From positions 62,001 to 126,000 of the forward strand of contig JAJPIF010000002.1 of the NCBI GenBank assembly GCA_021324885.1: DNA of 64,000 nt. The letters run 5' to 3'. The notes beneath the pieces are model-generated. The model had not been told where the DNA came from and did no database searches. It worked only from the letters and a program-made list of their open reading frames with translations. Numbering within the stretch: position 1 is the first letter of the stretch; each line of letters opens with the position of its first letter. The position numbers and the translations under genes are program-made. This stretch comes from Pseudomonadota bacterium. Its GTDB lineage: Bacteria; Desulfobacterota; Binatia; Binatales; Binataceae. Shown in pieces: positions 34,371-64,000 of the stretch.

Positions 34371-34393
34371 AAGTTTTTATCGCATGCGCGAAG

Positions 34394-35584: not shown

Positions 35585-35588
35585 CGGT

Positions 35589-37222: not shown

Positions 37223-37232
37223 CCAGCGCCGG

Positions 37233-37742: not shown

Positions 37743-37766
37743 CGCTAAATCACTCCAAGGCAGCCT

Positions 37767-38423: not shown

Positions 38424-38765
38424 CTATTTGAGGCGCTGCAGCAGGGACTTGAGCTCGGCCTGATCCAGCCAGCCACCGCCGTCTTCGGGGCAGCTCAGGA
38501 TGGTCAATCCCTTTTGCTCGGTTTTCACCAATGGATGATGGCAGCGGGGGCACAAAGCGCCCATGGTTTCGGCAGCGGCACTAACCGCCTGCTTCAACTC
38601 GGCCTGCTTGCGGCGGAGCCTTTCGAGCAGCTCGCGGTCGCGCTGCGCAGCCCATTGGTCCTCGCGGGCTTTTTCAAGATCGCGAATCTTGTCGCCAAAC
38701 CTGTCCTTTTCGTCCGACACGAAAGCAAACGCTCCTAGCCTTATGAATGGCCCCAGTTCTTCCAC
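38424..38765 (-). CDS. TFIIB-type zinc-ribbon protein (113 aa)
   Basis: Soluble protein with an N-terminal coiled coil (residues 25-60, RDLEKAREDQWAAQRDRELL) and a C-terminal zf-TFIIB-like ribbon: CPRCHHPLVKT ... CPEDGGGWLDQAEL, i.e. CxxC and a second Cys with the GxW(L/V)D motif of that family. The GTG start at 38765 has no good site. It is 13 bp after fmdB and is probably translated with it. Function unknown; such zinc ribbons are often protein-folding or nucleic-acid-binding adaptors. Confidence 0.75.
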   Translation of the reverse strand: MEELGPFIRLGAFAFVSDEKDRFGDKIRDLEKAREDQWAAQRDRELLERLRRKQAELKQAVSAAAETMGALCPRCHHPLVKTEQKGLTILSCPEDGGGWLDQAELKSLLQRLK

Positions 38766-38778
38766 CGCCGCGGGTGAT

Positions 38779-39114
38779 TCATAGCATATCTTTGATCAGT
38801 TTTCCGCTGCGCGCCTTTTCCACCGTCGCTTCGAACTTCGGCCCCAGGTCCACGCCCATCTGTTGCGCGCGCTTCTTCGCCCATAATCCCACGTTGCGCG
38901 GGTCCCTGTAAAAGCTCTCGTCCCGAGACCGTGCGGGATCGAAGCTCTTAAGCCGCGATGCTTCGGTTTCGACCACCGCGAAGGTGGACATGACGCGGCG
39001 GGTCCTGCGCGAGCCACATTGCGGGCAGGCGGGGGTCGTTTCACGCCGGGATCCAATCACGATCTCCGATCCCAACGCGCCGCAACGGCAACACTCGTAT
39101 TCAAAGATAGGCAT
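38779..39114 (-). CDS. FmdB-family zinc-ribbon protein (111 aa)
   Basis: FmdB/CxxC_CxxC putative regulatory zinc ribbon: MPIFEYECCRCGALGSE with CxxC, and CPQCGSRRTRR with the second CxxC. The remaining acidic-basic C-terminus is helical. FmdB proteins are widespread small proteins next to many enzyme genes and have no settled function. The gene lies between the two nuo clusters on the same strand, together with the TFIIB-type ribbon gene. Confidence 0.88.
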   Translation of the reverse strand: MPIFEYECCRCGALGSEIVIGSRRETTPACPQCGSRRTRRVMSTFAVVETEASRLKSFDPARSRDESFYRDPRNVGLWAKKRAQQMGVDLGPKFEATVEKARSGKLIKDML

Positions 39115-39243
39115 GCTACACGATCAACAATAATCCCGCCAAGGCAAGCGGGCAACCGCGGCCCGACTTCTGGCCATCGCCCCAAACCAATGGATGAAAT
39201 GACGCTGGTTCGGCGCTGAGCGAGCGGATAATCAGCGCCATGG

Positions 39244-42287: not shown

Positions 42288-44206
42288 CAGCGCATCACCA
42301 GGTATAGGTAAAAGGCCGCAATTCCCACAGCACCGATCAGGTAAATCAGCGCGTAATGCTGCACATTGCCAGTCTCGAACCGCCGAACAGCGTCGCCGCT
42401 CGCCTCCACGGTCGTTCCGGTGCCGTTCACGAGTCCGTCAATCGTGTAATAGTCAAGTCCCTTGAACAGCACGTATTGCGCGATAAAAAAGAGCGGCCTG
42501 GAAACCAACGCATCGTAGATCTGATCGATGTAGTACTTTTCCAGCAGCAGCTGATAAATCGCTTTGGCACGCCACGCCAGGTAGGTCGGCAGTCCCGGGT
42601 AACGGATATAGAAAATGTACGCGATAAGCGCGCCGGTCAGCGAAACCGCAAGGCTCAGGATACTCAGTCCCAGGTCGCTGGCTTCAAGCGCCGGCTTGAA
42701 GATCCCCACCGAGCCTGACAGGAAGCGCGAGAAAGAGCCACCCCACAGCCAGCCTTCCGGCAGCTGCACCCAGCCGCCGATTACACATAGCAGGGCTAGC
42801 GCCATGAGGGGCAATGTCATCACCGGCGGCGACTCATGCAGATGGTGGGCGCGCTCGGGTTCCACCCGCGATTCGCCATGGAAGGTCATGAACATCAGCC
42901 GGAACATGTAAAGACCGGTAAACCCCGCCGTTATCAGTCCCAACAGCCACAATCCGAAATGACCAGAGGTATAGGCTCCGGACAAAATCATGTCTTTTGA
43001 AAAGAACCCGGCAAATGGAGGCACTGCGGCGATCGCCAGGGTAGCGATCCACATCGTGGTGCAGGTGATCGGCATCTTACTGGCCAGGCCGCCCATCTTG
43101 TTCATGTCCTGCTCACCGCCCATGCCGTGAATCACCGAACCGGCGCACAGGAAGAGCAGCGACTTGAAAAACGCGTGCGTCATCAGATGGAAAATGCCGG
43201 CGGAAAACGCCCCGACGCCAACGGCGAGGAACATGTAGCCGAGCTGGCTGATAGTCGAATAGGCAAGTACGCGCTTGATATCGGGCTGGGTGATTGCGAT
43301 AGTCGCAGCGAAAATACAGGTTATTGTTCCCACCGTCGCCACCAGCTCCATCGCATCGGGGCTCAACAGGTAGAGGAAATTCAGCCGCGCAACCATGTAA
43401 ACGCCGGCTGTGACCATGGTGGCGGCATGGATCAGCGCGCTGACCGGCGTCGGACCCACCATCGCGTCAGGAAGCCAGATATAGAGCGGAATCTGCGCCG
43501 ACTTGCCGGTCGCCCCGATGAACAGCAGCACGCAAATCATGGTCGCCGTAGCCGGCCCGAACCAGGCGATGTGCTGCCGCAGTTCGACGAAATTGAGCGT
43601 CCACAGTCCGTGCGTGGCTCCCACCCAGACCGTGGTGAGGATGCCGAGGATGAAAGCGGCATCGCCCACGCGGTTGACGATGAACGCCTTGCGGCCGTTG
43701 TAAGCATACTCAGGATTGGTGTACCAGAACGCGATCAACAGGTAGGAGCAAAGCCCCACGCCCTCCCAGCCGACGAACATCAGGAGCAAATTGTCCGCCA
43801 AAACCAGCGTGAGCATCGAGAGAACGAACAGGTTCATGTAAGTAAAAAAACGGGCGTAATCTCCGTCCTCGGCCATGTAGCCGCTGGAATAGATGTGAAT
43901 CAGCATACCGACGCCCGACACCACCAGGACCATCACGGCGGTCAGCGCGTCAAAGCGCAGCGCGACGTCAACCTTGAAGGCGCCAGCTTCGATCCACGGC
44001 CACAACGTGGAGGTGAGCGCGCCGCCGGTAGGCAATCCCAGCAGCCGACCAAAAGCGACGGCGCCGACCACAAAAGCGGCCCCGATTACGCCGGCTCCCA
44101 CGATGCCGACAGTGGTGCGTCCCGCGCGCTGCCCCACAAACAGGTTGAAGACCACGCCGATCGCGGGAAACAGCAGGATTAAGCCAAGGGGGAAATGTTC
44201 CGCCAT
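42287..44206 (-). CDS. nuoL: Complex I membrane subunit NuoL (cluster 2)
   Basis: 639-residue NuoL paralogue. Seen: LMFVGWEGVGLCSYLLIAFW, IPLYIWLPDAMVGPTPVSA and QPDIKRVLAYSTISQLGYMF. It is shorter than cluster 1 NuoL; the difference lies mainly in the C-terminal region around the lateral helix and its flanking loops. Confidence 0.95.
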   Translation of the reverse strand: MAEHFPLGLILLFPAIGVVFNLFVGQRAGRTTVGIVGAGVIGAAFVVGAVAFGRLLGLPTGGALTSTLWPWIEAGAFKVDVALRFDALTAVMVLVVSGVGMLIHIYSSGYMAEDGDYARFFTYMNLFVLSMLTLVLADNLLLMFVGWEGVGLCSYLLIAFWYTNPEYAYNGRKAFIVNRVGDAAFILGILTTVWVGATHGLWTLNFVELRQHIAWFGPATATMICVLLFIGATGKSAQIPLYIWLPDAMVGPTPVSALIHAATMVTAGVYMVARLNFLYLLSPDAMELVATVGTITCIFAATIAITQPDIKRVLAYSTISQLGYMFLAVGVGAFSAGIFHLMTHAFFKSLLFLCAGSVIHGMGGEQDMNKMGGLASKMPITCTTMWIATLAIAAVPPFAGFFSKDMILSGAYTSGHFGLWLLGLITAGFTGLYMFRLMFMTFHGESRVEPERAHHLHESPPVMTLPLMALALLCVIGGWVQLPEGWLWGGSFSRFLSGSVGIFKPALEASDLGLSILSLAVSLTGALIAYIFYIRYPGLPTYLAWRAKAIYQLLLEKYYIDQIYDALVSRPLFFIAQYVLFKGLDYYTIDGLVNGTGTTVEASGDAVRRFETGNVQHYALIYLIGAVGIAAFYLYLVMR

Positions 44207-44210
44207 CGCG

Positions 44211-44513
44211 TTACCACCGCATAAGGTTGATTTCGTCGGCGTTGACCGTGGCGCGGTTGCGGAAAGTGGCCAGGATGATTCCGAGCCCGACTGCCGCTTC
44301 GGCGGCCGCCACGGTCATTACGAAAAACACGATCGATTGCCCGTCAACCGAACCCCAGGCCCGGCTGAGGGAAACGAAAGCGAGATTGACGGCATTGAGC
44401 ATCAACTCGATCGACATGAAGATGATGAGCACGTTGCGCCGGAGCAAAACTCCCGACACCCCGATACAGAAAAGGACCGCGCTTAGAATCATGTAATAGC
44501 TTGGCGGAGCCAT
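44211..44513 (-). CDS. nuoK: Complex I membrane subunit NuoK (cluster 2)
   Basis: 100-residue Nuo[20 protein letters not shown] and [17 protein letters not shown] carry the conserved Glu residues. Its ATG overlaps the nuoJ2 stop by one base (TAATG), indicating coupled translation. Confidence 0.94.
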
Positions 44514-45043
44514 TATGGAGTTCCTCCCGGGGCGCCCCCGCCGCCAGCTGTGGTACGCCGCGCCAATGCGACCCCGCCGATTACTCCCACCAGCAGGAGG
44601 ACCGAAGTCGCCTCAAACGCGATCAGATAATCGGTGAACAGGCTTTGCGCCAGGCGTCCGATCGAACCGAAATCCATCGCGACCGCCCGGTTTTGCGTGA
44701 TTGCCGGCGGGGGATGGACCACGAACAGGAGCAGTTCGGCGATCAGGGCCGCGCTGCCCAGCGAACCCAGGAATTTAAGCGCCAGATGCCCCGGTTCCAG
44801 CGGTTGCGATTGCAGGTTAAGCAACCAAATCACGAACAGAAACAGGACCATGATCGCGCCGGCGTACACGATCATCTGGAGAAATCCGACGGTGGCCGCA
44901 CCCAGCCCGATGAACAGCACCGCGATCACCACCAGCGTCATCACCAGCGACAGCAGGCTGTGCACCGGATGGCGCTGGAGAACGACACCGGCCGCTCCGA
45001 TGATTGCCAGCGCAGCAAGAAAGATAAACAGCCACAGAGGCAT
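44513..45043 (-). CDS. nuoJ: Complex I membrane subunit NuoJ (cluster 2)
   Basis: 176-residue membrane subunit. [20 protein letters not shown] and [16 protein letters not shown] are the characteristic segments. The ATG at 45043 lies two bases after the nuoH2 stop codon and has a GGGGAG site six bases upstream; a TTG at 45058 would overlap nuoH2 and is less likely. Confidence 0.93.
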
Positions 45044-45044
45044 C

Positions 45045-46172
45045 CTAGACTCCCCCAAACACGATCACGCAGGCGGTGACGGCGACGTTGAGCAGGCCCA
45101 GCGGCAGCAACCCCTTCCACCCCAGCCGCATCAGTTGGTCATAGCGGAAACGCGGCAGGGTCCATCGCAGGAGTATTTGCAGCCAGCAGAAGGCCACCAC
45201 CTTGAGCGTGAAGGTGATGATTTGAATGATGGCTACGGCCAGGTTGGGCAAATGAAAGAACGCGCCGCCCGGCAGATGGAAACCGTCGGGATAAAGCCAG
45301 GGAAACTGCCATCCGCCGAAAAAAAAGGTCGTGACCAGCGCCGATACCAGTACGATTTCGGCGAAATCCACCAGCATGAATACGGCCTGCTTGCCACCCG
45401 AGTATTCGGTGAAATATCCGGCTATCAGTTCCGATTCGCCTTCAGGCAGGTCAAAGGGAACGCGCTTTGATTCCGCCATCCCGGCCGTCAGCAGCAGCAG
45501 GAAGGCCAGGGGCTGGACGAAAATTCCCCATCGCGGCAAAAAGCCAAACCATACCCCGCCCTGCTCGCGACACATCAACTGAAGGTCGAGCGTGCCGTAG
45601 GTCATCACCATCGAGACGATCGCCAGGCCCATCGCAAGTTCGTAGGAGATCATCTGGGCGGTGGCGCGAATTCCCCCCAGCAGGGCCCAGCGATTGTTGG
45701 AAGCCCATCCCCCTAGTGACACGCCGTAAACTCCCAGCCCGATCGTGGCCAGGATATAAAGGGCGGCGACGTTGAGGTTGGCGGCCTGTAAATTGATGGA
45801 ACGGTCGCCAATGATCAGGGTGTCGCCGAAGGGCACCACGGCGAACGTGATCAGCACCGGAAACATGGCCAAAAACGGAGCCAGGGCATGGAGGAATCGA
45901 TCGGCGCCGGCGGGCACGAAATCCTCCTTGGTGAACAGCTTGAGCGGGTCGGCCATCAGGGTGTTGACAAAGCCGAGATTGGGGAGGCCCAGGCGGCGTC
46001 CGACGCCGACAATCGCGGCGCGGTTGGCCCCGACGCGATCCTGGATCAGCGCGCTGCCCTTGCGCTCGAACCAGAGCAGAATCGCCGACAGGTTCAGCAC
46101 CATCAGCAGGACGATGATCGCTTTTATAGCGCCGATAATCAGTTCAGCTAACACGGCGCGCCAGCTCGTCAA
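45045..46172 (-). CDS. nuoH: Complex I membrane subunit NuoH (cluster 2)
   Basis: NuoH paralogue of about 375 residues with RVPFDLPEGESELIAGYFTE and the ERKGSALIQDRVGANRA N-terminal loop. This subunit normally contacts the quinone-reducing subunits B and D, which cluster 2 does not encode. The start is uncertain: TTG at 46172 overlaps nuoE by 29 bases, and a GTG at 46154 (369 residues) is an alternative; neither has a clear ribosome binding site. Internal loop GRRLGLPNLGF looks like an insertion relative to cluster 1. Confidence 0.93.
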   Translation of the reverse strand: MTSWRAVLAELIIGAIKAIIVLLMVLNLSAILLWFERKGSALIQDRVGANRAAIVGVGRRLGLPNLGFVNTLMADPLKLFTKEDFVPAGADRFLHALAPFLAMFPVLITFAVVPFGDTLIIGDRSINLQAANLNVAALYILATIGLGVYGVSLGGWASNNRWALLGGIRATAQMISYELAMGLAIVSMVMTYGTLDLQLMCREQGGVWFGFLPRWGIFVQPLAFLLLLTAGMAESKRVPFDLPEGESELIAGYFTEYSGGKQAVFMLVDFAEIVLVSALVTTFFFGGWQFPWLYPDGFHLPGGAFFHLPNLAVAIIQIITFTLKVVAFCWLQILLRWTLPRFRYDQLMRLGWKGLLPLGLLNVAVTACVIVFGGV

Positions 46173-50855: not shown

Positions 50856-51222
50856 GATCAAAATCCTGAGACCGAGCTAAGCATCATCCGATCCAGCGCG
50901 TCAACGACAGGATCCCCAACGCGGCGCCTGGCTGCACGACAAGGGCCCAGGCCCAACCGCGGCTGCTTCAGTCGCAAACGCGTCATCCTACGAACAATCC
51001 CGGCTGATTATGAAATTCACCTAAGTTTCTATGGCATTCGTATTGAATTTATTGAAAAAAGGGAGTGCCTGAACGTAAAGCCTTTTAAAGTTGCGAAATA
51101 CCTTTACATCAGGCTAATTTGGCGATATTTTGTCTAATTGTCGCGTTCACCCTGGAGGTCGGTGCCGGAGTGCGAAGGCGGCTTTCGGTCGGGATTTTAG
51201 ATGGGCTGCAGGAGAGAAGTTG
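50856..51222. other. AT-richer intergenic region before the glycan locus
   Basis: About 365 bases without a gene between the divergent methyltransferase and UDP-sugar dehydrogenase genes. Clearly richer in A and T than the flanks, especially 51000-51140. It contains the predicted promoter listed at 51103. No hairpin, tRNA-like structure or repeat was seen. Confidence 0.5.
51103..51131 (+). promoter_or_regulatory. Predicted sigma-70-type promoter for the UDP-sugar dehydrogenase gene
   Basis: TTTACA (51103-51108) and TATTTT (51126-51131) are separated by 17 bases, the ideal spacer, with five of six and four of six matches to the -35 and -10 consensus. Transcription would start near 51138, giving a leader of about 85 bases. 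Prediction only. Confidence 0.4.
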
Positions 51223-52545
51223 ATGGCGGGTTTGCTCGAGCATGCAATTCGTAAATTCGAGGATCGCAGCGCCCGTGTCGGCGTGTTGGGCCTGGGCTAC
51301 GCTGGGCTGCCTCTTACGTGCTGTTTTGCTGAGGCGGGATTTCAAACCATGGGCTTCGATATCGACCCGGCGAAAATCGAACAGTTGCAGGCCGGCCGAA
51401 GCTATATTGGCCACATTTCTGGTGAAAGAATCGCGCAATTGGTTAAATCCCGACGTTTGAAACCGACTACGGATTTTTCCTTGTTGCGTGATTGCGACGC
51501 CGCCATCATCTGCGTGCCGACACCGCTGGGCGAAGGACGCACGCCCGATTTGAGGTTTGTCATCAATACAGCGACGGCGGTCGCCGAGCACCTGCATCGC
51601 GGGGAACTGGTAGTGCTGGAAAGCACCACTTACCCCGGGACGACTGATGAGATACTGCTGCCGTTGTTTCAGAGTTCCGGATTAAAAGTGGGAGAAGATT
51701 ATTTTCTCGCGTTCTCGCCCGAACGCGAGGACCCGGCCAACCCGGATTTTTCAACCCGCACCATTCCCAAAGTCGTTGGCGGCATAACTCCCAACTGCGG
51801 CAGGGTCGCAGGCGCCGCTTATGGCGCGCTGGTCGAGCGAGTCGTGCCAGTCTCCTCGGCCCGGGCGGCCGAAGCCGCCAAGCTGCTCGAAAACATCTAC
51901 CGATGCGTCAATATCGCGATGATCAACGAGCTCAAGTTGCTGTTCGAGCGGATGGGTATCGACGTTTGGGAAGTGATTGGGGCGTCGGCGACCAAACCTT
52001 TCGGCTTCACTCCTTTTTATCCGGGTCCCGGACTGGGCGGGCACTGCATTCCCGTCGATCCCTTCTATTTGACCTGGAAAGCCAAGCAATACGACTTCAA
52101 TACCCGTTTTATCGAACTGGCCGGCGAAATCAATTCGGGAATGCCGCAGCATGTGGTCGACCGCCTTATCGAAGGATTGAACCTGATGGGTAAGGCGCTT
52201 AACGGCGCTCGCATCCTGCTGATCGGCGCCGCTTACAAGAAGAATGTCGAAGACGTAAGGGAAGCACCAGCCATCCGCATTATCCAGCTCCTGCACGAAC
52301 GCCTTGCCACGGTGAATTACCACGATCCCTACGTGCCGCGATTGGAAACCCGTCATCTGGAAAAGCCGCTGTTCTCAGTCCGATTAAACTCCGAGATTGT
52401 TGCGGCGAGCGATGCTGTCATAATAGTCACCGATCATGCCGATATAGACTACCGCCTGATCCTGAACCACGCCCCGTTGATCGTGGACACGCGCAACGCG
52501 ACCGCGCCATACCGTAAGCCGTCGCATCGCGTGATCATGGCTTAG
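51223..52545 (+). CDS. UDP-sugar 6-dehydrogenase, WecC-like (440 aa)
   Basis: NAD-dependent nucleotide-sugar dehydrogenase of the UDP-glucose/GDP-mannose family, most like UDP-N-acetylmannosamine or UDP-N-acetylglucosamine dehydrogenases. VGVLGLGYAGLPL (Rossmann Gly-rich, from residue 18), ESTTYPGTTDEI, the catalytic Cys in GPGLGGHCIPVDPFYLTW and AYKKNVEDVREAP are conserved. It makes a uronic-acid sugar donor for the glycan. The AGGAGAG site supports the ATG at 51223; the frame upstream is not family-like. Exact sugar specificity unresolved. Confidence 0.9.
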   Translation: MAGLLEHAIRKFEDRSARVGVLGLGYAGLPLTCCFAEAGFQTMGFDIDPAKIEQLQAGRSYIGHISGERIAQLVKSRRLKPTTDFSLLRDCDAAIICVPTPLGEGRTPDLRFVINTATAVAEHLHRGELVVLESTTYPGTTDEILLPLFQSSGLKVGEDYFLAFSPEREDPANPDFSTRTIPKVVGGITPNCGRVAGAAYGALVERVVPVSSARAAEAAKLLENIYRCVNIAMINELKLLFERMGIDVWEVIGASATKPFGFTPFYPGPGLGGHCIPVDPFYLTWKAKQYDFNTRFIELAGEINSGMPQHVVDRLIEGLNLMGKALNGARILLIGAAYKKNVEDVREAPAIRIIQLLHERLATVNYHDPYVPRLETRHLEKPLFSVRLNSEIVAASDAVIIVTDHADIDYRLILNHAPLIVDTRNATAPYRKPSHRVIMA

Positions 52546-52661: not shown

Positions 52662-54137
52662 TCACGAATCGAAGCTATTATAATGCCTCTCAACAAGTGA
52701 GCTGGCAGGGATGGCGCGTGTTTCGTTCGGATAGCTTTCCGGGCTGTTCACTTTCCAAAGCCAGACCGCCACCACGTAGATTACCAATGGAACTGTGGGA
52801 ACTGCATAACGGGAATTTTCCCCCAGTTCAATCGCCGCCTGCACCAGCGAGGCCGCCAGCACCACCGCGATTACGCAGCAGTCGAAATCCAGGCTCAAGC
52901 GCCGGCGTATCAATTGAAGCGCGCCCCAGCCGGCGATCAGCAGGAACAGTAGGTTTACGGCGAACCAAACCAGCTTCTGGACCTTCCACAGCTTGCGTAC
53001 AAAAAGGCCGAACGCCGGCTTGTAAAACTGGTCCGGAAATCCAAAATATGCGTCGGGAATCCAGAATCGGTTCCAGCCTCGCAACACGCTGCGCGCGTAG
53101 AGCAGCGGATGCGCGATGAACATCTCGAGCGACATGCGGGTGAGTCTGCGTGACAGCTCGATCTCCGTCCATCCGGTCTCTCTATATATTTCCGGAGCCG
53201 CTTCGAAGATCGCTTCGGAACGCGATCCGCCTTCTGCAATCTGCCTTCTCACCACCCGCAAATACGGCTCACGAATAGCGACATAACGCTCCGGAGCAAG
53301 TTCAATAAACTCACCACTATGATTACTCAGTGACAGACCCACCGTGCTCATGAGACCGAAGTAACCAGCCACGAACCAATTGAAAATGCACCAGGCCAGC
53401 ATCAGCCCGGCCGCGGGTATTGCAAACGCTGCAAGACGCCTGGTTCGCGCGCCCGCGCCTTCCCGCTCACCGAGTTTTAGCAGAGCCGAAAAATATATGA
53501 ATAATAGAAAGGCGTACAACGGCCGGGCCAGCGCGGTCATACCGGTGAGTAAGCCTGTTACTGCGTACCAGGTCACCGCCCTGCGCGTGGACGGCCTGGA
53601 AACGGTTCGTTGCAGCGCCACAACCGATGCCAGCAAAAAAAACGTGCACACGGTTTCGGACATCATTGCCGATTCATAGGTTATCGCGCCCAAATCGAGC
53701 GCCCAGGCGGTCCCGGCAAGAATCCCGAAAACACTGCTGTTGGTTCGACGCATTACCAAAAGAGCCAGCAGCGAAGCTGTCGCAACGCCGATCAGGGTTT
53801 GCACCAGCCTCGCCGTGACGTAGTCTCTCCCGCTCGCCAGCAGAAGGAGGGGGAAAACCGGCGTTCTGCTGGCGTCCCAACCTCCGAAGCTCAGCGAACT
53901 GAAGTCACTGGCCAGTTCGAGATAGCTGGGGGTGTCGGGATCAACCGCAGGCGCGCAGTTCCTGACCATCAATAGCCGCGCAATCATCGCGACAATCACC
54001 ACCGCCAACAGCATCCTGGCGGTAGCTCGGCGCGAGCGACCCGGGTCAGGCGCCGGATCGACTTTGAATGAACAGCGCGCGCTTTCAGTTGCCGATTGCA
54101 ATCCGAACCGCAGCTGGATGGCCTGGAGCGCCGGCAC
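52662..54137 (-). CDS. GT-C-type membrane glycosyltransferase-like protein (491 aa)
   Basis: Polytopic membrane protein with about ten segments; the periplasmic loop after the first segment reads CAPAVDPDTPSYLELASDF, an acidic motif in the position of the catalytic Asp of GT39/GT83-like mannosyl- or arabinosyltransferases. These enzymes use a lipid-phosphate sugar. The GTG at 54137 overlaps the next gene by 53 bases; ATG at 54014 is an alternative that removes 41 residues of non-conserved, basic N-terminus. Last gene of the glycan operon. Confidence 0.7.
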   Translation of the reverse strand: MPALQAIQLRFGLQSATESARCSFKVDPAPDPGRSRRATARMLLAVVIVAMIARLLMVRNCAPAVDPDTPSYLELASDFSSLSFGGWDASRTPVFPLLLLASGRDYVTARLVQTLIGVATASLLALLVMRRTNSSVFGILAGTAWALDLGAITYESAMMSETVCTFFLLASVVALQRTVSRPSTRRAVTWYAVTGLLTGMTALARPLYAFLLFIYFSALLKLGEREGAGARTRRLAAFAIPAAGLMLAWCIFNWFVAGYFGLMSTVGLSLSNHSGEFIELAPERYVAIREPYLRVVRRQIAEGGSRSEAIFEAAPEIYRETGWTEIELSRRLTRMSLEMFIAHPLLYARSVLRGWNRFWIPDAYFGFPDQFYKPAFGLFVRKLWKVQKLVWFAVNLLFLLIAGWGALQLIRRRLSLDFDCCVIAVVLAASLVQAAIELGENSRYAVPTVPLVIYVVAVWLWKVNSPESYPNETRAIPASSLVERHYNSFDS

Positions 54138-55371
54138 GCTTGCTGTCGAGCTTCTGCAGTGCGTCCACTATATCAGGCAGCATCGCTTTGGCTACAACCA
54201 TGTTGCCGGCCTCGTTGATATGTACATAGTCGAGAAAATAAGGCGCGCTGGATGTACTGAAAAGACCGCTCATGTCGCGGACGCCGACTTTCTCGTGAAT
54301 CTCAGCCATCCTTTGGTAGACGCCTATATAAAGGTCTCGGTTCTCGCGCACCCACGGATCGTTTTCCCAGGCGGCTTCGTATGGTGTCAGCTTCTTCTTG
54401 TAGTAAATTACCGGCTGCCAGTAGAACAGGCATTTGAAACCGTACCGCCGCGACGCGTCCTCGACAACGCTCTTGTTGTACAAATAATCGCGGATAACGT
54501 CATCCTCAAGATGGGGATCCCGCTTCTCCGCGGTCTGTCCGCGCCGCCGGTGCATAAGTCTGATCAACCTGCCTTGAAGCAGGCGATACTCTTGGGGCGC
54601 CAGCCGCTCGGCGATCATCTGCGCCATCTCTCCGAGACCGGAGTTGACAACCATCGATTTGAACGCCTCATAATACAAGAGCGAGCGATCGTGCGGATTG
54701 TGCCAGTTCAGCAGGTTGAACTCCCGGCCGCGATACCTTTCATCATAGGTGACTCCCGCCCGGCTGTTGAGCGCCGCCGATTCGACGTCATTGCTGCCGT
54801 CATAGAAAATAACCAGGTCAGGGATGCTTCCATGAAGCAGTTGCTCCTGAAGAAAGAGTACTTCTTGAGTACTGACATAACCGCGTTGTCCGTAATTGGT
54901 TACTTCCACCCTGTAGGGAGTGGCCGCAAGCAATTTCTGGATTAGAGAAGGAATCGTATAATCGTCGCGGGCGCCTTCGCCCCATATAGCGGACCCGCCG
55001 AACATGAAGATACGCAGCACTCTTGTTTTCGGCACCGCGTTTGAGCGTTCGGCGCCGCGCCAGGTCGGCCGAATGCCGTCGTCTCCAATGTTGATGTATC
55101 TGCCCCGACGGGGCGACGCGATCCAGTAAACATAAGGATGCCATTGGACCGTGAATGCGGCCAGCTCATCGTAATACTCACGGGTCCAGCGCTCCTTCTG
55201 ATAACCGTCGGCATACACTCGCGGATCGACTTCCGGCTTGCGCGTAAAATGCAGGCCGATATCAATGGTCAGCTCTAAGAAAGCAAGCATCAAAAGAACC
55301 AGGGTGACCTCGATCCAGATCACCCACAGCGCACGCTTCAGGCCCGCGGCTACTTTATACAGATCTGCCAT
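54085..55371 (-). CDS. Membrane-anchored SGNH-hydrolase-like protein 1 (428 aa)
   Basis: An N-terminal membrane segment (residues 14-36) is followed by an extracytoplasmic SGNH/GDSL-like domain: FMFGGSAIWGEG (nucleophile Ser block), the Gly block VTNYGQRGYVSTQEV, the Asn block in YDGSNDVESA, and the catalytic Asp-His pair in FLDYVHINEAGN. These domains usually act as O-acetyl or acyl esterases/transferases on polysaccharides. A paralogue with the same layout is at 58690. Chosen start is the ATG at 55371; a TTG six bases upstream adds two residues. Confidence 0.8.
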   Translation of the reverse strand: MADLYKVAAGLKRALWVIWIEVTLVLLMLAFLELTIDIGLHFTRKPEVDPRVYADGYQKERWTREYYDELAAFTVQWHPYVYWIASPRRGRYINIGDDGIRPTWRGAERSNAVPKTRVLRIFMFGGSAIWGEGARDDYTIPSLIQKLLAATPYRVEVTNYGQRGYVSTQEVLFLQEQLLHGSIPDLVIFYDGSNDVESAALNSRAGVTYDERYRGREFNLLNWHNPHDRSLLYYEAFKSMVVNSGLGEMAQMIAERLAPQEYRLLQGRLIRLMHRRRGQTAEKRDPHLEDDVIRDYLYNKSVVEDASRRYGFKCLFYWQPVIYYKKKLTPYEAAWENDPWVRENRDLYIGVYQRMAEIHEKVGVRDMSGLFSTSSAPYFLDYVHINEAGNMVVAKAMLPDIVDALQKLDSKRAGAPGHPAAVRIAIGN

Positions 55372-55474
55372 CGTCAAATGATCGCGGTCTGAAATCGCAT
55401 TGCTTGGCGATTGACGGTTTACCGGAGGTAGAGAAAGCCAGGCTGCCCCGCCAATACATCCGGCCCCTCCAAAC

Positions 55475-57190
55475 TTACAACACCGGCAGCCCCCGCCCCG
55501 GTTTTGCCCAGGGACACGGACTGCGTTTAATTTTGGGCAAAAGTGTCTGTTTTGCCGCAGCGCTCGTGTTTAGCCGGTCCACCTCTCCCGTGCCGACGTC
55601 CACCAAGAGGAGCAAATCGTTGAATCCGTAACTGTTTTCGTCGTAAGACTGCGTAATTACACCGTTCCTTGCCAGTTTGGCGTGGCTATTGACCACGTCC
55701 CCTCTGAGAGTGTCATCACCGTAACTGAGTTGAAGCACCCCTGTCATGTCCCAGGTGCTCTCGAACACGATCCCCGGTCCAATGTAGGGACAGAATCCAG
55801 CCACCAAAACGGTGCTTCCCACCGGTGCACGCACCAGCGCCCGATGGACCGCGGCCAGCACCTGCGACTGACGCGCCCCGGCGGCTATCCAGTATTGCGC
55901 GATTGTACTTACGATCAGGTAGTTGGATCCGCATAATACCGCGATGAAAAAGGCGAAAATCGCGGCCCGGTTGGCCTGGCCAAAAAGGTTTGAGAACAAG
56001 CCCGCGCAGCCCGCAACAACGGCCGAGGCGCCGATGGCCGCGGCTATCGTTATGCGGTTGTCGGCTCCGGTCGCAATGAAACTGTCTTTTTTGTCCGCAA
56101 AAAACCAGGCCAGACCCATGATGGAGGTGAGCAGACCAAACGCGATGAGGCAGGCCGCTGCGCTTTTGACCGGCGGCCTGTCAACGGGCGTTCCCGCTTT
56201 CCGAATATAAGCAAACACCAGCGCGCCCAACGCGGCCGCGGTGAAAACAAATTGACCGGATGGAGCGAGATGAAGGCATTGCCATGCCGTGTAGGGGACC
56301 TCGAGGGCAAAGCGGCCGAAGTCGAACTCGATCAGATGCGCGGCAAAGGCGCGCGCAATCGGTCCGAAGTCCCGCAGCACATTGTAACTATGGCGCGAAT
56401 AGTAACGCGTTTCTACCGCGATCTTGTAAGACATAGCCGCGGACAAGGCGCCGGCGAACGGCAGGTAAAGCCGCAAGGATCGGTAACGAACTGAAGGCTC
56501 GCTCGAGTTGAAGTTCGACGAGCTGAACTTTACCAGCACCGGAATCAGAAGCATCAAACCAAAAGTGACTTCATATGCCAACACGCTCAAGGCTGCCGAA
56601 ACCGACGCGAGCAGCAGCCACAACACCGATGGAGTTCCACGCCGCCCGGCAGCATTAAGCATTGCGAGTACGGCAAGGAGGCATAAGGCGCAGCTCATCG
56701 GCGCCTGGAATGAAGCAAACCAGAACCGGGCCGTCGAATAGTGCGGGAGAAGCGAATAGATCAGAGCGACAGCCAGGCTATCCAGACGTGAAAGGACTTT
56801 TCGGCACACCAGATAGAGCAGCACGGAGACCAGGCAAACTATGAGGCTGTTGGTCAGGTGATATGCGATTGCCCGGTTGCCGAACAGCCGGTACAGAGCG
56901 GCAAAATAAAATATCTGCACAGGCCGCATCTGCATCTGCCGTTCGTGGGTCGAAAGAGCGGCAAAGCATGCCAAAATCGAAGGATGCCGTACGGTCGAGA
57001 GGTCCGCAAACATGCCCCAATCATCACTGTAAAAACCCAGTTTTCCGGCGTACGAGGCGAAAGTGAATACGCAAACACCGGTGATCAGGACGCAATCCCT
57101 GACAATTCCGAAATCGAAAGCAAATCGCGGCCCACGCCATTGGCAATAATCGACCGCTGCGCGCATTGATTTGGCGGCGCTCTCTTTCAC
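55475..57190 (-). CDS. GT-C-fold-like polytopic membrane protein (571 aa)
   Basis: Membrane protein with about eleven segments and the motif GKLGFYSDDWGMFADL after the first segment; acidic YSDDW followed by RPVQIFYFAALYRLFGN resembles GT-C glycosyltransferases. The large periplasmic loop lies near the C-terminus (VLVAGFCPYIGPGIVFEST). The GTG at 57190 overlaps the stop of the following gene in transcription order (GTGA). Function as glycosyltransferase is inferred; no full catalytic assignment. Confidence 0.65.
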   Translation of the reverse strand: MKESAAKSMRAAVDYCQWRGPRFAFDFGIVRDCVLITGVCVFTFASYAGKLGFYSDDWGMFADLSTVRHPSILACFAALSTHERQMQMRPVQIFYFAALYRLFGNRAIAYHLTNSLIVCLVSVLLYLVCRKVLSRLDSLAVALIYSLLPHYSTARFWFASFQAPMSCALCLLAVLAMLNAAGRRGTPSVLWLLLASVSAALSVLAYEVTFGLMLLIPVLVKFSSSNFNSSEPSVRYRSLRLYLPFAGALSAAMSYKIAVETRYYSRHSYNVLRDFGPIARAFAAHLIEFDFGRFALEVPYTAWQCLHLAPSGQFVFTAAALGALVFAYIRKAGTPVDRPPVKSAAACLIAFGLLTSIMGLAWFFADKKDSFIATGADNRITIAAAIGASAVVAGCAGLFSNLFGQANRAAIFAFFIAVLCGSNYLIVSTIAQYWIAAGARQSQVLAAVHRALVRAPVGSTVLVAGFCPYIGPGIVFESTWDMTGVLQLSYGDDTLRGDVVNSHAKLARNGVITQSYDENSYGFNDLLLLVDVGTGEVDRLNTSAAAKQTLLPKIKRSPCPWAKPGRGLPVL

Positions 57191-58659
57191 CGGTGGGCTT
57201 GCTGCTCAAGATCGCGGCGTTCAGGCGAATCGCCGGACAAACCGCAACGGCGCAAAAGCACGATAATTGCCAGAAACGCCAGCCACGTGCGCATGGTCTG
57301 CACGTATTCATGATCGGCCAGGGTAAAGTAATGCGGCAAGGGCATGAACACAAAGAGACTCAGAAATACCAGAGGGTGCGGCAACTCACTTAAGCCGCCC
57401 GAGAACAGACCATAGATCACGATAACCAGGGGAACCACGGCGGAGCAGGTAATCGTAATATACCTGATCCAGGTGAAAGCCGTTCGCTCAAGCCGTTCCC
57501 GGGCGTCCCAGGGCCATCTATCGAATATGTCGGTGCACCAGACTACGTAAAAGCGCTCCGTCGCGCGCCAAACGGTCTGCGCCGGATGGGCGCGCATATA
57601 GTTAAGCGCCCGCTCGCGGCAAAGGCGTACGTAACCGATTTCTCCCAGTGATTTGTACAGCGCCGCTTCCTGCGCGTTCAGGGCGGGATGCAGCGAGGTG
57701 GCCTGCTCGCGAATGCATCCGCGGGGGTTGTTGCCCTGGAACAACTCGTACCATCCGTTGGATCGCATCGGCACGAAGGCGTGAAGTTCGACGGCGTTGC
57801 GGATCAGCCACGGCGCAACGATTGAGCCGGCAACCGCCGCCGACACCGCCGCGGCTCCGGCCATCGCGCGCAGCGGCGCACGCCTGCGTATGAACGGCTC
57901 CATCAGGGCCACCGCATACACCGGCAGCGGCGTCACGTTAATCAGGGCCAGGATGCCGGCGGCTGCACCCAAAGCCGCGCCGGAGCGCCGCTTCGGATCA
58001 TCGCACCACCATAGCGCGGCACACACCAGCAAGGCGATCGCCAGTTCCTGCCACTGGTAATACCAGATTTCCGGGATGCGCAATAACGACTCGGGCCAGA
58101 AACAAAAGACCAGGGCGGCTGCAGCGGGTGTATACGACGGAACTCGGGGCGCGCGCCGTGTGACATAACGTGCTACCAGCCAATACAGAGAAACCGACAA
58201 CGCTGTTGGTATCGTTTGTAGTAAGACCAGCGCCCGGTATGTTCGCTCGGAGGCTTCCCCCTGCAGTCTCATCACGGCGGCCCAGAGATAGGGCATAAGC
58301 GGGCATTCCCATGCAGTGGGCACGTTCCCTTCGGAAAAGGGCGAGCTGAAGCCCCGACCGTGAAATATATTGAGGGCTATATTTCCGATCTCCGCAAAGG
58401 CGAAGGTGTTGGCCGGGATATGCTGCGCGCGGAATATCGCGTGAGCCAGGGGATAGAGCAACCGCACCGCCAACGACGCGGCGAACACCCGCAACATTGC
58501 GGTAACCGGCCGATCGGCGGGAAGCCATCCCTCAAGCCGCGTTAGAAGATTTTTCTCCCGCGGGCCGCATTCGGCCAAACCCCCGTGTAAATCGGCGGAT
58601 CGCCTGGCCGCAGTGGTTTTGGAGATCATCCCGGTATTTAACGCAGACGCTCGTGCCAT
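57187..58659 (-). CDS. GT39/ArnT-like membrane glycosyltransferase (490 aa)
   Basis: Polytopic membrane protein. Signature of this GT-C family: FAEIGNIALNIFHGRGFSSPF with PTAWECPLMPYLWAAVM shortly after, including the acidic residue near the first periplasmic loop. Several membrane segments follow and the C-terminal part is soluble. Most likely transfers a sugar from a polyprenyl phosphate. Translationally coupled to the gene at 55475. The N-terminal 50 residues are poorly conserved. Confidence 0.75.
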   Translation of the reverse strand: MARASALNTGMISKTTAARRSADLHGGLAECGPREKNLLTRLEGWLPADRPVTAMLRVFAASLAVRLLYPLAHAIFRAQHIPANTFAFAEIGNIALNIFHGRGFSSPFSEGNVPTAWECPLMPYLWAAVMRLQGEASERTYRALVLLQTIPTALSVSLYWLVARYVTRRAPRVPSYTPAAAALVFCFWPESLLRIPEIWYYQWQELAIALLVCAALWWCDDPKRRSGAALGAAAGILALINVTPLPVYAVALMEPFIRRRAPLRAMAGAAAVSAAVAGSIVAPWLIRNAVELHAFVPMRSNGWYELFQGNNPRGCIREQATSLHPALNAQEAALYKSLGEIGYVRLCRERALNYMRAHPAQTVWRATERFYVVWCTDIFDRWPWDARERLERTAFTWIRYITITCSAVVPLVIVIYGLFSGGLSELPHPLVFLSLFVFMPLPHYFTLADHEYVQTMRTWLAFLAIIVLLRRCGLSGDSPERRDLEQQAHR

Positions 58660-58689: not shown

Positions 58690-59934
58690 TCAGTGACTGT
58701 TGCTTTCCAGCGCGCGGACCTGGTCATTGAGCTTTGGGGTCACTTGTTCCAGGGCAGCGGCGATATCGTCTATCATGGCTTCGGCAATAAGCCGATTGCC
58801 GGCGCCGCTGACATGTATTTCATCAATGAAATAAGGCTGCGGTTTATTCCGGAAAAGACCGCTCAAATCATGGATTTGATTTTTACCGGCGATTGTCGAA
58901 ATACGGCGGCCGATTGCCTGGTCGAAAGCTTTTTCTTCGGGGAAATAGGCCTGATCCTGTACGACCCGCTCGAAAGGGCTGGTTTGGTTCTTGTCCAACA
59001 GGGACGGCTGCCAGTAAGTCAGGACGCGAAAACCGAATTGCAGGGCCAAAGCATCGGCGAAGCGTTTATTCAATAAATACATTCGAACGACCTGCTGCTG
59101 GAACTGATCGTCATTGGCCAGGCGCCTGATGGTCTCTCTAGCGGCCCCGGCTGCGACCAGGCGTCCGTCCACTTCGGAGTAGGATTCAGGCGCCAGCGCC
59201 ACGACCAGCTTCTTGCCTATTTCGGCGACTCCGGTATCCAGAACAAATCTCGCGGCGGCGGCGGCGAACAGGCGCCGGCGGGAACTCCAGAGGTTGAATT
59301 CCCTGCTTCTTGTTTCCTCATCATAGGTAAGGCCGGGCGCATCATTATATTCCGCGGAGAAGACATCGTTGTAGCCGTCGAAGAAAACAGCGAGATCGGG
59401 TATGTTGCCGGCTCGTATGTACTCGGCCAGCAACAATACCTCCTGGGTGCTGACATAGCCGTCCTCGCCCATATTCGTGACCTCGGCGCATATATGACGG
59501 GCGTCGAGCATCTTCTGAACCCAGGACGCTATTGTCTCATCGTCGCGCGCGCCGATACCCCACATCGTGGATCCGCCGAACATGAATACGCGAGCCGGAT
59601 GTTCGCAATCAGTACGGCCGTGCGCATGTGCGGTCCTGCGCAATCCCGCCGCATCGACGTTAATGTATTTGCTCGTGTACTGCGCGCCAACCCAGTACAC
59701 GTAGGGCTGCCATCTTGAGTTCTTTTTGGCCAGTTCGTCGAAATACTCGCGCGTCCAGGCGGCTCCATGATAAGCGTCGGCGAAAGCGCGGCGGTCGATA
59801 ACCGTCCGTGAATGGAATACGACGATAGCCATCGCATCGAGCACGATAAGGCCGAAGAGGACCAGTCCCACCTGAATCCAGATTACCGCGATCCAGCGCA
59901 CGACGGCGTGCGCAAAATGACGCGGGCCGTTCAA
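58690..59934 (-). CDS. Membrane-anchored SGNH-hydrolase-like protein 2 (414 aa)
   Basis: Paralogue of the protein at 54085 with the same layout: one N-terminal membrane segment and an SGNH-like domain. FMFGGSTMWGIGARDD, NMGEDGYVSTQEVLLL, FFDGYNDVFSAEYND and DEIHVSGAGNRLIA align block by block with the paralogue. The TTG start at 59934 has an AAGAGG site at good spacing. Likely a polysaccharide O-acyl esterase or transferase acting outside the cytoplasmic membrane (inference). Confidence 0.8.
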   Translation of the reverse strand: MNGPRHFAHAVVRWIAVIWIQVGLVLFGLIVLDAMAIVVFHSRTVIDRRAFADAYHGAAWTREYFDELAKKNSRWQPYVYWVGAQYTSKYINVDAAGLRRTAHAHGRTDCEHPARVFMFGGSTMWGIGARDDETIASWVQKMLDARHICAEVTNMGEDGYVSTQEVLLLAEYIRAGNIPDLAVFFDGYNDVFSAEYNDAPGLTYDEETRSREFNLWSSRRRLFAAAAARFVLDTGVAEIGKKLVVALAPESYSEVDGRLVAAGAARETIRRLANDDQFQQQVVRMYLLNKRFADALALQFGFRVLTYWQPSLLDKNQTSPFERVVQDQAYFPEEKAFDQAIGRRISTIAGKNQIHDLSGLFRNKPQPYFIDEIHVSGAGNRLIAEAMIDDIAAALEQVTPKLNDQVRALESNSH

Positions 59935-59983: not shown

Positions 59984-62275
59984 CTACAACTTGCGCAAAA
60001 CCACAAATTCGTGAGTCGGAGTGCTGGTCCTTTGGAGCCGCTGAAGGCCGGGATACCGCGCGAGTTCCTCGATTGCCCACCTTCCCCCGAAGTGAAGGCG
60101 TTTGGCTAACCACGATTCATCAAAGGATTCGCGGAAGTCGCCGGCGAAAAGAATGTCGCCGGCGCGCATACTTGATACCAATCGATCGAACGCAGCGCGC
60201 AATTTTCCCGGACGGCGGATATAACCAAGCACGTCCATGGCGACGATAAGATCAAAATGTCCGGGAATCTGATCGCTGCGAAGATTCCAATGAGAAAAAG
60301 TCACGTGCGCGCCCCAAACGCATCGCTCACGGGCGCGCTGAAGTGCGATGTCGGAGAAGTCCACCGCCATCAGCGAGCCGCACAACGGGGCCAGCATTTC
60401 GGTGAAGACGCCTTCGGCGCAGCCGATTTCCAGAACACGGCCGAATCCTTGCGGAGGACGCACAGCCTCGAGCATCCCCAGGGCCATGAGATGAAGCTCG
60501 CGCTTGGAGGAGTCGGTGGTATACTTCCATGGGTCGTGCGCGCGTTCGTATTCGACGTCGAAGGCCCCAACCTGCCTGTAGGGATCCCTTATCGAATAAA
60601 CCACCCCGGCGAGCTTCGGATGCCGCGATGCTTGCAAACCGCATATGCGGGCGAATGAGCGCAAGAGCGGGTAAGCGCTTTTAACGGCCGCCAGAAACAG
60701 GTCGGCCAGCGCATCGATTCCAAACCGCATCAGCCTCCGTTCCTCCTCGTGGGCGCCAAGTGCGGCGTAGGCGATGAAATAGCCCAGTCCCCCTGACAAC
60801 GCGGCCGCGATCACCGCAAACCAGCGCCCATCATGAAGGCTTCGTACTGTAATCAGAGCCGCGCACGCACAGACCATCGCGGGTATCCAGACGCGGCGGG
60901 CGATGCGGCGCGCAAGATCGGAGAGCGCGACGCCGCAGACGTCTGCCGCCGCCCGCAGCATCAAAACGGCCGCGACCGGCGCCGAAAACATCAAGGCCCA
61001 GGCGGCGCCCACCGGTCCCAGCCGTCTCAGCAGGTAGGCGGTCAGAGGCAGCGCCACCAGCGCCACGCCGAACACCGTCGCCGATAAGAATCCGACCATC
61101 CCACGGCCGGTCAGGAGACTCGCTGCGGCTGCGTCGCACGCGCTGATGGCCGAGGCCACAACCATGAGGCGCAAGACCAGCACCGTGCCTTCGGGCACGC
61201 GGCCCAGCCAAGCCGTCAGCAGGTATGGAGCGGCTATCCACAAAATGATGTAGACGGGCAAGGTCAGCACGACCACCAAGCGCGTGCCGGTCTCGAGCGT
61301 CTGCGCCGTGGAGGTGGCGCAGTTGGTGCGTTGATGCCGGCTTGACGCCGGAATGATCGCCGTCGTCAGCTCCCAGGCGATGTTGCCCGCCGCAAGCGGG
61401 AACTTGCAGCCGAGCTGGTAGGGAACCAGCGCGGCAGGTCCGAGCATGAGCCCGATAAGCATCGGCGGCCCGTTCCACAGGGTGGCGTTGGCCAGAACGC
61501 TGGCCTGACTCAAAAGGCTGAAGCTCATTTGCGGCCGCAGGATGTCCAGTTCCAGCGGGTGGGGCTTCTGCCTGAACGCAGGGACCATTGCGGCGACCAC
61601 AGCATAAGCGGCGACCAGACTGAGTATTGATACCGCGGCCTCGGCTTGAACTACGGCAAGCAATCGCCCGCCCGACGACAGCACGCACACGATCGCAAAT
61701 GCGTTCAACAGGCAGGTCGAAACGGCAATCAGATTGGACAGGTCGAACCTGCGCAATCCCTGCAGCACCGACAGCTGCAACGAACACATCTGGTCGGCGA
61801 TAAATCCAGCCGCCACGATTATGAATACCTTGGTGACAAGGCCGGGAGTCACAACGGTGCTTTGACGGCGCGACGCGAGCGCCAGACCCGTACCGATTAT
61901 AGCCAGCGCCCCCAGGATCATGATCCGCAGATAAAAGTTGGCGGCGGCTCTGATGAACGGGGCAACCTCCGAATGTTCGTTCCCGGCGGCGCCCACCTCG
62001 CGAATCACCGTCAGTTGCACCCCGAGATCCGCAATCGTAGCGACCGCATCCGTGACCATCGAGGCGAACAGCCATAGACCGAAAAGATCCGTTCCAAGCC
62101 CTTTCAGCATCAGCGGGACCAGAACAATTGCGACCAGGGCCAGAAGGAGCTTGCTCCCGCCGTTGATGAGTCCGTGGCCCATCAGCCGCATCGGCTCCGA
62201 AGTTCCCGCAGTGGCGGAGCGCGGTGCCGGTCTTATTTCCGGCAGGTCAGCGATAGCTTCAGCGGACGCCGGCAT
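59984..62275 (-). CDS. Wzx-type flippase fused to a NodS-like methyltransferase (763 aa)
   Basis: Residues about 30-500 form a MATE-like oligosaccharide flippase of the Wzx/RfbX type with twelve or more membrane segments (GHGLINGGSKLLLALVAIVL at the start, LGPAALVPYQLGCKFPLAA inside). Residues about 560-763 are a soluble SAM methyltransferase: AHDPWKYTTDSSKRE, RVLEIGCAEGVFTEML (SAM loop) and LMAVDFSDIALQRARER match the NodS-like N-methyltransferase family. There is no stop or frameshift between the domains. Cytoplasmic methylation and lipid-linked glycan export would thus be on one chain. Overlaps the GT2-NodB gene by 17 bases. Confidence 0.8.
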   Translation of the reverse strand: MPASAEAIADLPEIRPAPRSATAGTSEPMRLMGHGLINGGSKLLLALVAIVLVPLMLKGLGTDLFGLWLFASMVTDAVATIADLGVQLTVIREVGAAGNEHSEVAPFIRAAANFYLRIMILGALAIIGTGLALASRRQSTVVTPGLVTKVFIIVAAGFIADQMCSLQLSVLQGLRRFDLSNLIAVSTCLLNAFAIVCVLSSGGRLLAVVQAEAAVSILSLVAAYAVVAAMVPAFRQKPHPLELDILRPQMSFSLLSQASVLANATLWNGPPMLIGLMLGPAALVPYQLGCKFPLAAGNIAWELTTAIIPASSRHQRTNCATSTAQTLETGTRLVVVLTLPVYIILWIAAPYLLTAWLGRVPEGTVLVLRLMVVASAISACDAAAASLLTGRGMVGFLSATVFGVALVALPLTAYLLRRLGPVGAAWALMFSAPVAAVLMLRAAADVCGVALSDLARRIARRVWIPAMVCACAALITVRSLHDGRWFAVIAAALSGGLGYFIAYAALGAHEEERRLMRFGIDALADLFLAAVKSAYPLLRSFARICGLQASRHPKLAGVVYSIRDPYRQVGAFDVEYERAHDPWKYTTDSSKRELHLMALGMLEAVRPPQGFGRVLEIGCAEGVFTEMLAPLCGSLMAVDFSDIALQRARERCVWGAHVTFSHWNLRSDQIPGHFDLIVAMDVLGYIRRPGKLRAAFDRLVSSMRAGDILFAGDFRESFDESWLAKRLHFGGRWAIEELARYPGLQRLQRTSTPTHEFVVLRKL

Positions 62276-64000
62276 GCTCGTTGCTACGCAATTTGCACGA
62301 ATGCCCCAAGACCGGTTGGGTTCGGGGCGAAGAAACGGCGTTCACGACAACCGGGTTACGGGCGCGCAGCGACACCCGGCCCAATTCAACGGCCAGGGCA
62401 AGATTGCCTATTCGATGGTCAGACCTGATAGCCGTGGTATGCATCCGGTAAAGATCCGTGCACAGCGCGTTAAGACCTGGTTGGTCGCCCATTGCCATCT
62501 CGAACGATCGCCGCACGCAGTCCAAAATCGCGTCATTCACGGCACCGCCGGGATATAGGAAGGACAGTGGAGGACGGCCCAGCACCCGGGTCAGGTCCGC
62601 GGCACTGCCTTCGATCTCATCCGCCAGCCGATCGGCTTCGAGCCCGCTTAGATGGCGAAGGCGGCGGCCATGCGAGCCAAACTCGATCCCTTTTTCCGCC
62701 CAGTACCGGATTTGCGCGGCGGTCATCAGGGGCTGGGGACCGATGCCCGACTCGCGATCCCATTGCGACGTGCCGCCGATTTCCGCGGTGACCACGTGAA
62801 CCGCAGCACGGAAACCGTGGCGGAGCAGAATCGGAAGCGCGCTTTCCGCCAACTCCGCGTAGGCGCAGTCGAAGCTTATCAGCACCGGGCGATCGGGCAG
62901 CGCTTCTCCCCTTCTTATCCAGGCCAGCCATTGCGACGGCGCGATTGCGGCATATCCGCGGCGCGCCAGCCATCGCACCTGCGCCTGGAAACTCTGCGCC
63001 GATTCAATCCGCGCATAGCGCAGCACTGGCAGCCTCATCCCGAACTCGCGCCGCAAAGCTTGCCAGGAACCCGCCTCGCGCATCGCGCCGCGCATGATCG
63101 CGATCGCCCTGCGGTATTGAAAAACACGAAGGCCGATCTGCTCGATTCGGGAATTCGCGCTCAGACTTTCCGCCATTGAACACGGTACACGCAGGGCCAG
63201 GTCCGGCGAAATCGGGGGAATACAGCACAGCGACCAGAGCATCAGCTTCGCGCGCGATTCCCCAATCAACGAGGCGAGGATCGATGCGCGCCGGTACCCG
63301 CCATGCTTGCGCGCCAACTGTACATCCGCTTTACCCGTACGCGGCGCATCTGAAGCGACCGCCTGGCCGGCGCTTTTGGAGTAGATTTCGTAAACCGGGG
63401 CGTCGGGCAGAAACCTGAATTGCACTCCTGCATTCCACAGCCGGATCGCGAACTCCTGATCCTCGGAGCTGGAAAACCTTTCGTCATAGCCCCGATGGTT
63501 GAGCAGCAGATTTCGGGGGGCGGAAAAGTTGGCGGCAAGCCAGATTTTGTATGCGGACCGCATCGGTCCCTGCCCGGCCAGCTGGTCGTGATATTCGTTA
63601 TGCGAGCGTCTTACCAGTTCAGTCGCGAGACCGCTTCTGCTTTCCGGCGCGCTGCGCAGAGGTCCAATTACGATGCCGTCGAAGCCGTCGTTGTGCGCCG
63701 CGATATGGCGAGCGGCGAACGTCGGTTGGCCAAACATGTCGTCATCCAGGAGCAACACCAGTTCACCACGCGCTGCCTCAATGCCGGCGTTGCGCGCAGC
63801 CGCTAGACCGCGATGCGGACGTTCGATTACCCGCAGCGCAACCGACGATCTTATGCTGCGGACAAATTCAGCGGTGCCGTCGGTGGATCCGTCGCAGACC
63901 ACAACCACTTCGTATTCGCCCGGCGGCAAATCCTGATTGAGGGCGTGCGGCAAAGTTCTGGCCAGCATCGCGCAGCGATTGAGCGTCGGTATAACGATCG
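62259..64000 (-). CDS. GT2 glycosyltransferase fused to degenerate NodB-like domain, partial (N-terminus beyond right edge)
   Basis: The frame continues to the right edge: upstream of the Met at 63968 it reads IVIPTLNRCA, the classical GT2 N-terminus, so the true start is outside the window. Visible: GT2 domain with EVVVVCDGSTDGTAEF, LVLLLDDDMFGQPTF (DxD) and SSSEDQEFAIRLWNAG, then a polysaccharide-deacetylase (NodB) domain. The NodB motif 1 is VLISFDCAYA: the first Asp is present but the second, a metal ligand, is Cys (62865-62867). Motif 2 is GSHGRRLRHLSGL: the second His ligand is replaced by Leu (62658-62660). Motif 3 is SFLYPGGAVND. A deacetylase activity is therefore doubtful. Confidence 0.78.
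   Translation of the reverse strand, partial: IVIPTLNRCAMLARTLPHALNQDLPPGEYEVVVVCDGSTDGTAEFVRSIRSSVALRVIERPHRGLAAARNAGIEAARGELVLLLDDDMFGQPTFAARHIAAHNDGFDGIVIGPLRSAPESRSGLATELVRRSHNEYHDQLAGQGPMRSAYKIWLAANFSAPRNLLLNHRGYDERFSSSEDQEFAIRLWNAGVQFRFLPDAPVYEIYSKSAGQAVASDAPRTGKADVQLARKHGGYRRASILASLIGESRAKLMLWSLCCIPPISPDLALRVPCSMAESLSANSRIEQIGLRVFQYRRAIAIMRGAMREAGSWQALRREFGMRLPVLRYARIESAQSFQAQVRWLARRGYAAIAPSQWLAWIRRGEALPDRPVLISFDCAYAELAESALPILLRHGFRAAVHVVTAEIGGTSQWDRESGIGPQPLMTAAQIRYWAEKGIEFGSHGRRLRHLSGLEADRLADEIEGSAADLTRVLGRPPLSFLYPGGAVNDAILDCVRRSFEMAMGDQPGLNALCTDLYRMHTTAIRSDHRIGNLALAVELGRVSLRARNPVVVNAVSSPRTQPVLGHSCKLRSNEHAGVR

Follow-up and report, generated by a model that had tools for sequence, protein, structure and literature searches.

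A Wzx-type flippase joined to a NodS-family methyltransferase in a polysaccharide locus of Binataceae

In the window, the whole 64,000-nucleotide stretch of Binataceae DNA analysed here, a single minus-strand gene encodes a MOP/Wzx-type flippase and, in the same polypeptide, a class I S-adenosylmethionine (SAM) methyltransferase of the NodS family. This is a new domain architecture built from known parts, a variant of known systems; no report of a Wzx/MOP flippase–methyltransferase fusion was found in the open-access literature. We favor a model, to which we give a probability of roughly 60%, in which a lipid-linked glycan is modified by the methyltransferase at the cytosolic side of the membrane and is then exported by the attached flippase.

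One reading frame encodes both domains

The frame opens with an ATG at 62275 and its stop ends at 59984, giving 763 amino acids with no internal stop; the plus strand across the same interval contains stops throughout. A frame check and Pfam searches confirm what the first-pass annotation had described, a single 763-residue frame that runs from a flippase to a SAM methyltransferase without stop or gap (Table 1). Both domains exceed their curated cut-offs: Polysacc_synt (PF01943) covers residues 39–313 (E 2.6e-13, 50.5 bits versus 28.2) and NodS (PF05401) covers residues 579–722 (E 9.8e-22, 78.2 bits versus 24). The SAM-binding motif LEIGCAEGVF is intact at residues 615–624, and no GT2 or deacetylase domain is found in the fused protein by Pfam. 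The flippase half matches the NCBIfam MOP flippase model PRK10459 weakly (30.6 bits versus a cut-off of 273) and returned no matches in a sequence search of the PDB. The proposed count of twelve membrane segments is only approximate, since hydropathy, together with the helices seen in a model of very low confidence, points to 12–14. An AlphaFold model of the fusion computed from a two-sequence alignment has a mean pLDDT of 34.7 and is unusable.

Table 1. Features of the fusion gene and its neighborhood (window coordinates; dN/dS relative to the orthologue in the second species, rough values with synonymous sites near saturation).
Feature	Coordinates	Strand	Basis
Fused gene, MOP/Wzx-type flippase + NodS-family class I SAM methyltransferase	59984..62275	-	Open frame, Pfam, orthologue
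Flippase domain, residues ~25–506, 12–14 predicted membrane helices	60758..62203	-	PF01943, hydropathy, dN/dS 0.21
Linker, residues ~507–572	60560..60757	-	dN/dS 0.22, without gap or stop
Methyltransferase domain, residues ~573–763	59987..60559	-	PF05401, PDB 3ofj, dN/dS 0.12
Internal GGAGG-N3-ATG (Met516), could start a separate methyltransferase	60716..60740	-	Sequence, codon alignment
GT2 glycosyltransferase + polysaccharide deacetylase, catalytic residues lost; upstream of fusion, 17-base overlap	62259..63998	-	Pfam, motif alignment
SGNH/GDSL-like protein, downstream	58690..59934	-	PF13472 E 2.8e-5, under cut-off; G002 orthologue in same place
Multi-membrane-span protein, GT-C-like by context	57187..58659	-	No Pfam match; G002 orthologue in same place, 60% identity
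GT-C-like (PMT_2) membrane protein	55475..57190	-	PF13231 E 2e-4, under cut-off
Second SGNH/GDSL-like protein	54085..55377	-	PF13472 E 5.6e-9
GT-C membrane glycosyltransferase (PMT)	52662..54137	-	PF02366 E 7.8e-6; G002 orthologue
Nucleotide-sugar dehydrogenase (UDP-glucose/UDP-HexNAc dehydrogenase family)	51130..52545	+	Named from translation

The source is an incomplete draft assembly of 30 contigs, a setting in which an assembly or sequencing artefact might fuse two genes. A search for the same architecture elsewhere recovered one full-length fused orthologue, in a second species of the genus (G002, contig JAJPHZ010000022.1; 63% identity over residues 4–763); homologues are therefore not always split genes. 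Because this genome was assembled separately, and because the linker is conserved as coding sequence, an assembly join is ruled out. Around the junction (codons 470–600) the reading frame has 0 stops and every other frame has 2–7. Against the orthologue, dN/dS is 0.21 for the flippase, 0.22 for the linker, and 0.12 for the methyltransferase, rough values because synonymous sites are near saturation; this comparison indicates purifying selection on the linker as well as on the two halves. With the coding frame alone open across the junction and dN/dS low, a sequencing error that hides a stop between the domains is very unlikely. The independent orthologue and the conserved linker together make the chance that the fusion is an artefact negligible.

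A Shine-Dalgarno-like GGAGG and an in-frame ATG at the domain junction may be left over from a time when the methyltransferase was a gene of its own. The GGAGG sits three bases 5′ of the ATG at codon 516, and the gene could thus yield two products, the fusion and a free methyltransferase. We consider this very doubtful: codon 516 is GTC in G002, which rules out a conserved internal start and makes a separate product at most species-specific, and the purine-rich stretch doubles as code for a conserved Glu-Glu-Glu-Arg-Arg.

Relatives of the methyltransferase and origin of the fusion

By sequence comparison, the methyltransferase is a relative of NodS and not NodS proper. It matches solved NodS (PDB 3ofj) with an E of 1e-16, and the two share a Pfam family, the SAM motif, and ~150 residues alignable at 33–34% identity. 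However, the domain scores 68.9 bits against the NodS equivalog NCBIfam NF041650, for which the cut-off is 300. In the tree the two fused domains group (94/99), and the standalone methyltransferases of G036 and G001 fall with them in a single clade (100/99) that excludes both rhizobial NodS and the trifunctional proteins discussed below. The Tyr-Tyr pair near the methyl group in NodS is Gly-Tyr in the fusion (VLGYI versus VLYYL), Ser-Cys in G036, and Asp-Tyr in G001. Further unlike NodS, the domain is attached to a flippase, and no nodABC genes were seen near the fusion.

Two of the three genomes of the genus carry the fusion; in G001, the third, the methyltransferase occurs solely as a free-standing protein of 243 aa. 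G036, another member of the family, also carries a separate enzyme (267 aa, 48% identity over the domain); from query residue 516 onward, an extension at its N-terminus can be aligned with part of the fusion linker. NodS-family matches occur in 12 of 148 genomes of the class, where the only flippase fusions are the two described here, and in 89 of 395 genomes of the phylum sample. Outside a 2561-aa frame in G366 and several of 400–470 aa, seven of the longer NodS-family frames in the phylum sample were read by eye and by hydropathy, and these contain no flippase. Of 124 plasmid records, none matches the query over its full length, and a scan of 84,980 species genomes, which reaches close relatives only, returned a single orthologue. 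The standalone enzymes of G001 and G036, and the lack of a further flippase–NodS fusion in the class genomes, the phylum sample, and the plasmids, bear out the statement in the first-pass annotation that the two kinds of protein are normally separate. The fusion is apparently lineage-restricted. Two other candidates proved to be different proteins: the 610-aa gene that immediately precedes the G001 methyltransferase, considered as a split flippase, encodes a Glycos_transf_4/CoA_binding_3 protein, and a long match in G067, which extends over the coordinates of both halves, comes from a protein with GT2, methyltransferase, and deacetylase domains.

Since the fused domains group in the tree, the simplest history has just one fusion event, in which a flippase would have been joined, within part of a single genus, to a methyltransferase that nearby relatives keep as a separate protein. 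The join could be a neutral accident that tethers the products of neighboring pathway genes and leaves methylation and flipping independent, as the separate enzymes of relatives and the fluid domain order of related proteins would allow. Yet the fusion is intact at 63% identity and both halves are under strong purifying selection, though stop mutations could split it. We regard mere tethering as possible, if on the unlikely side.

The polysaccharide locus

The relatives of the methyltransferase lie among glycan genes. In G001 its start and the stop of a Glycos_transf_4 (WecA/MraY-type) gene, of the type that starts undecaprenyl-linked glycans, overlap, and in G036 it is adjoined by a homologue of that gene (44% identity). 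The G001 methyltransferase is followed by SGNH-like genes homologous (35–43% identity) to the ones located downstream of the fusion, which makes the position partly conserved. Among more distant relatives, some form one protein with a GT2 and a deacetylase and others are paired with PIG-L deacetylases; NodS itself has NodB/NodC as neighbors.

G002 has the same gene order around the fusion, with orthologous GT2-deacetylase, SGNH, and GT-C neighbors. The GT2-deacetylase frame upstream of the fusion passes the window end and comprises 623 aa on the contig (full frame in L023). Past the window end, the operon continues upstream with two more GT2-deacetylase genes, a GT2, a GT4, and a WecB-like epimerase, all named from translations. 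Of the three GT2-deacetylases of this locus, only the one at L023 5120-6913 keeps the catalytic FDD and HxxxH motifs; two have lost them, including the copy adjoining the fusion, and G002 repeats this pattern of one canonical and two degenerate copies. The degenerate copies are possibly pseudo-enzymes kept as intact genes. GT2-deacetylase paralogues were noted at 62259-63998 (-), L023:2007-3668, L023:5120-6913, and L019:11992-18677.

The nucleotide-sugar dehydrogenase of the window probably supplies precursor. A second, unfused Wzx, identified by profile search, lies ~27 kb upstream of the fusion together with a polymerase-like gene named from its translation; both belong to the same large polysaccharide locus (L054:7751-9106 and 4178-5602, respectively). 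Elsewhere in the window, positions 27672-46172 apparently hold genes for membrane subunits of respiratory complex I in two sets, named from translations only.

Proposed methylation and export of a lipid-linked glycan

Because a genuine fusion sits in an exopolysaccharide locus, methylation coupled to export is its natural reading. We propose that the fusion is an inner-membrane protein with two functions that works in the pathway for a secreted polysaccharide. A glycan would first be built on the undecaprenyl carrier; the C-terminal domain, on the cytosolic side, would methylate it using SAM; the N-terminal MOP flippase would then move this glycan, still on its lipid, across to the periplasmic side for use by polymerising or GT-C enzymes. 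The tether would hold the modifying enzyme at the export portal, and most exported units would receive the methyl mark. The presence in the locus of WecB-like, GT2, GT4, GT-C, polymerase-like, and Wzx genes, several of them named from translations only, supports a role in glycan synthesis. The termini of MOP flippases lie in the cytosol, where SAM is, and it is this knowledge of the family that suggests a cytosolic C-terminus here; we infer the placement, the substrate, the order of steps, and the coupling of methylation to export.

The likeliest acceptor would be a sugar, plausibly an amine freed by the canonical GT2-deacetylase. N-methylation of an amino sugar, raised in the first-pass annotation, is plausible because the locus holds this partner deacetylase with intact catalytic motifs, which is circumstantial evidence; the equivalog miss, the separate clade, and the Gly-Tyr pair count against it. 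The fold alone leaves the acceptor unfixed because WbdD, to which NodS is the nearest structure, methylates phosphate (PMC3482155). The fusion, the normally separate parts, and the coupling as a natural reading all stand from the earlier interpretation, with aminosugar N-methylation as a plausible candidate activity. The fusion suggests an unusual methylated sugar in the polysaccharides of an uncultured lineage.

Because the locus has a second, unfused Wzx, the fused flippase may not carry the main repeat unit; that Wzx and the polymerase-like gene could serve the main polymer. In a serious rival to our model, the flippase carries one undecaprenyl-phosphate-linked, deacetylated, N-methylated sugar, which the downstream GT-C proteins attach to a polymer in the periplasm. 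The GT2-deacetylase, the flippase-methyltransferase, and several GT-C-like proteins share an operon and parallel ArnC (GT2), ArnD (deformylase), ArnE/F (flippase), and ArnT in their order of activities, GT2, deacylation, flip, and GT-C transfer (PMC12748117). However, the Arn proteins are separate and include no methyltransferase, ArnE/F are not MOP flippases and come from another family, and the GT2 domain fits EpsD (9e-59) far better than ArnC (6e-6). MOP members, moreover, usually carry diphosphate-linked oligosaccharides, and we judge a side-branch of this kind rather unlikely.

In a stricter version of the coupling that we favor, the quality gate suggested in the first-pass annotation, the flippase would move methylated substrate only, by direct hand-over or by recognition of the methyl group, and methylation would act as an export licence. 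The fusion puts both activities together, and there are precedents for such a gate: the flippase TacF, from the same superfamily, blocks the transport of teichoic acid that lacks phosphocholine (PMC13385700), and WbdD capping, phosphorylation followed by methylation, is needed for export of O9a (PMC3482155). Yet the selectivity of TacF lies in the flippase itself, without fusion, the partner of WbdD is an ABC transporter, and a fused enzyme would lessen the need for a gate. We consider a gate unlikely, and less likely still a self-contained modify-then-export machine in which the flippase takes the glycan directly from its own methyltransferase and methylation is a built-in export checkpoint within one polypeptide. 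The gate, the Arn-like branch, and the neutral tether are refinements of our preferred model or compatible with it, and the likelihoods we attach to them overlap.

TacF is one of the rare worked cases of how a flippase distinguishes completed lipid-linked glycans from incomplete ones; a natural enzyme–flippase fusion makes the link between modification and export directly testable. Mycobacterial MviN is a MurJ-type flippase. This membrane protein of peptidoglycan synthesis is a precedent for a soluble domain at the C-terminus of a flippase-type protein, but there the domain is a regulatory pseudokinase instead of a methyltransferase (PMC12599244). Like the Wzx/MOP flippases (PF01943; TacF, MurJ), the fusion has a domain match over the cut-off and lies in a polysaccharide locus; unlike them, it bears a C-terminal methyltransferase, and no solved structure is reachable by sequence from its flippase half. 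WbdD, the kinase-methyltransferase of E. coli O9a, couples methylation of a lipid-linked glycan to export, as the fusion would in our model, and has a fold nearest NodS, but acts on phosphate and is unfused to its transporter.

The protein named by NCBI as a trifunctional GT2/class I SAM methyltransferase/polysaccharide deacetylase also fuses a NodS-family methyltransferase to glycan enzymes. It differs in that all three domains form one protein, whereas here the flippase bears the methyltransferase and the GT2-deacetylase is a protein of its own; the methyltransferases of the trifunctional proteins fall in a different clade. A relative from the class encodes a 1220-aa protein of this kind, with GT2, NodS-family methyltransferase, and polysaccharide deacetylase domains (L017:2946-6608), and the same three-domain architecture is annotated as trifunctional in Gloeothece and Sulfitobacter plasmids.
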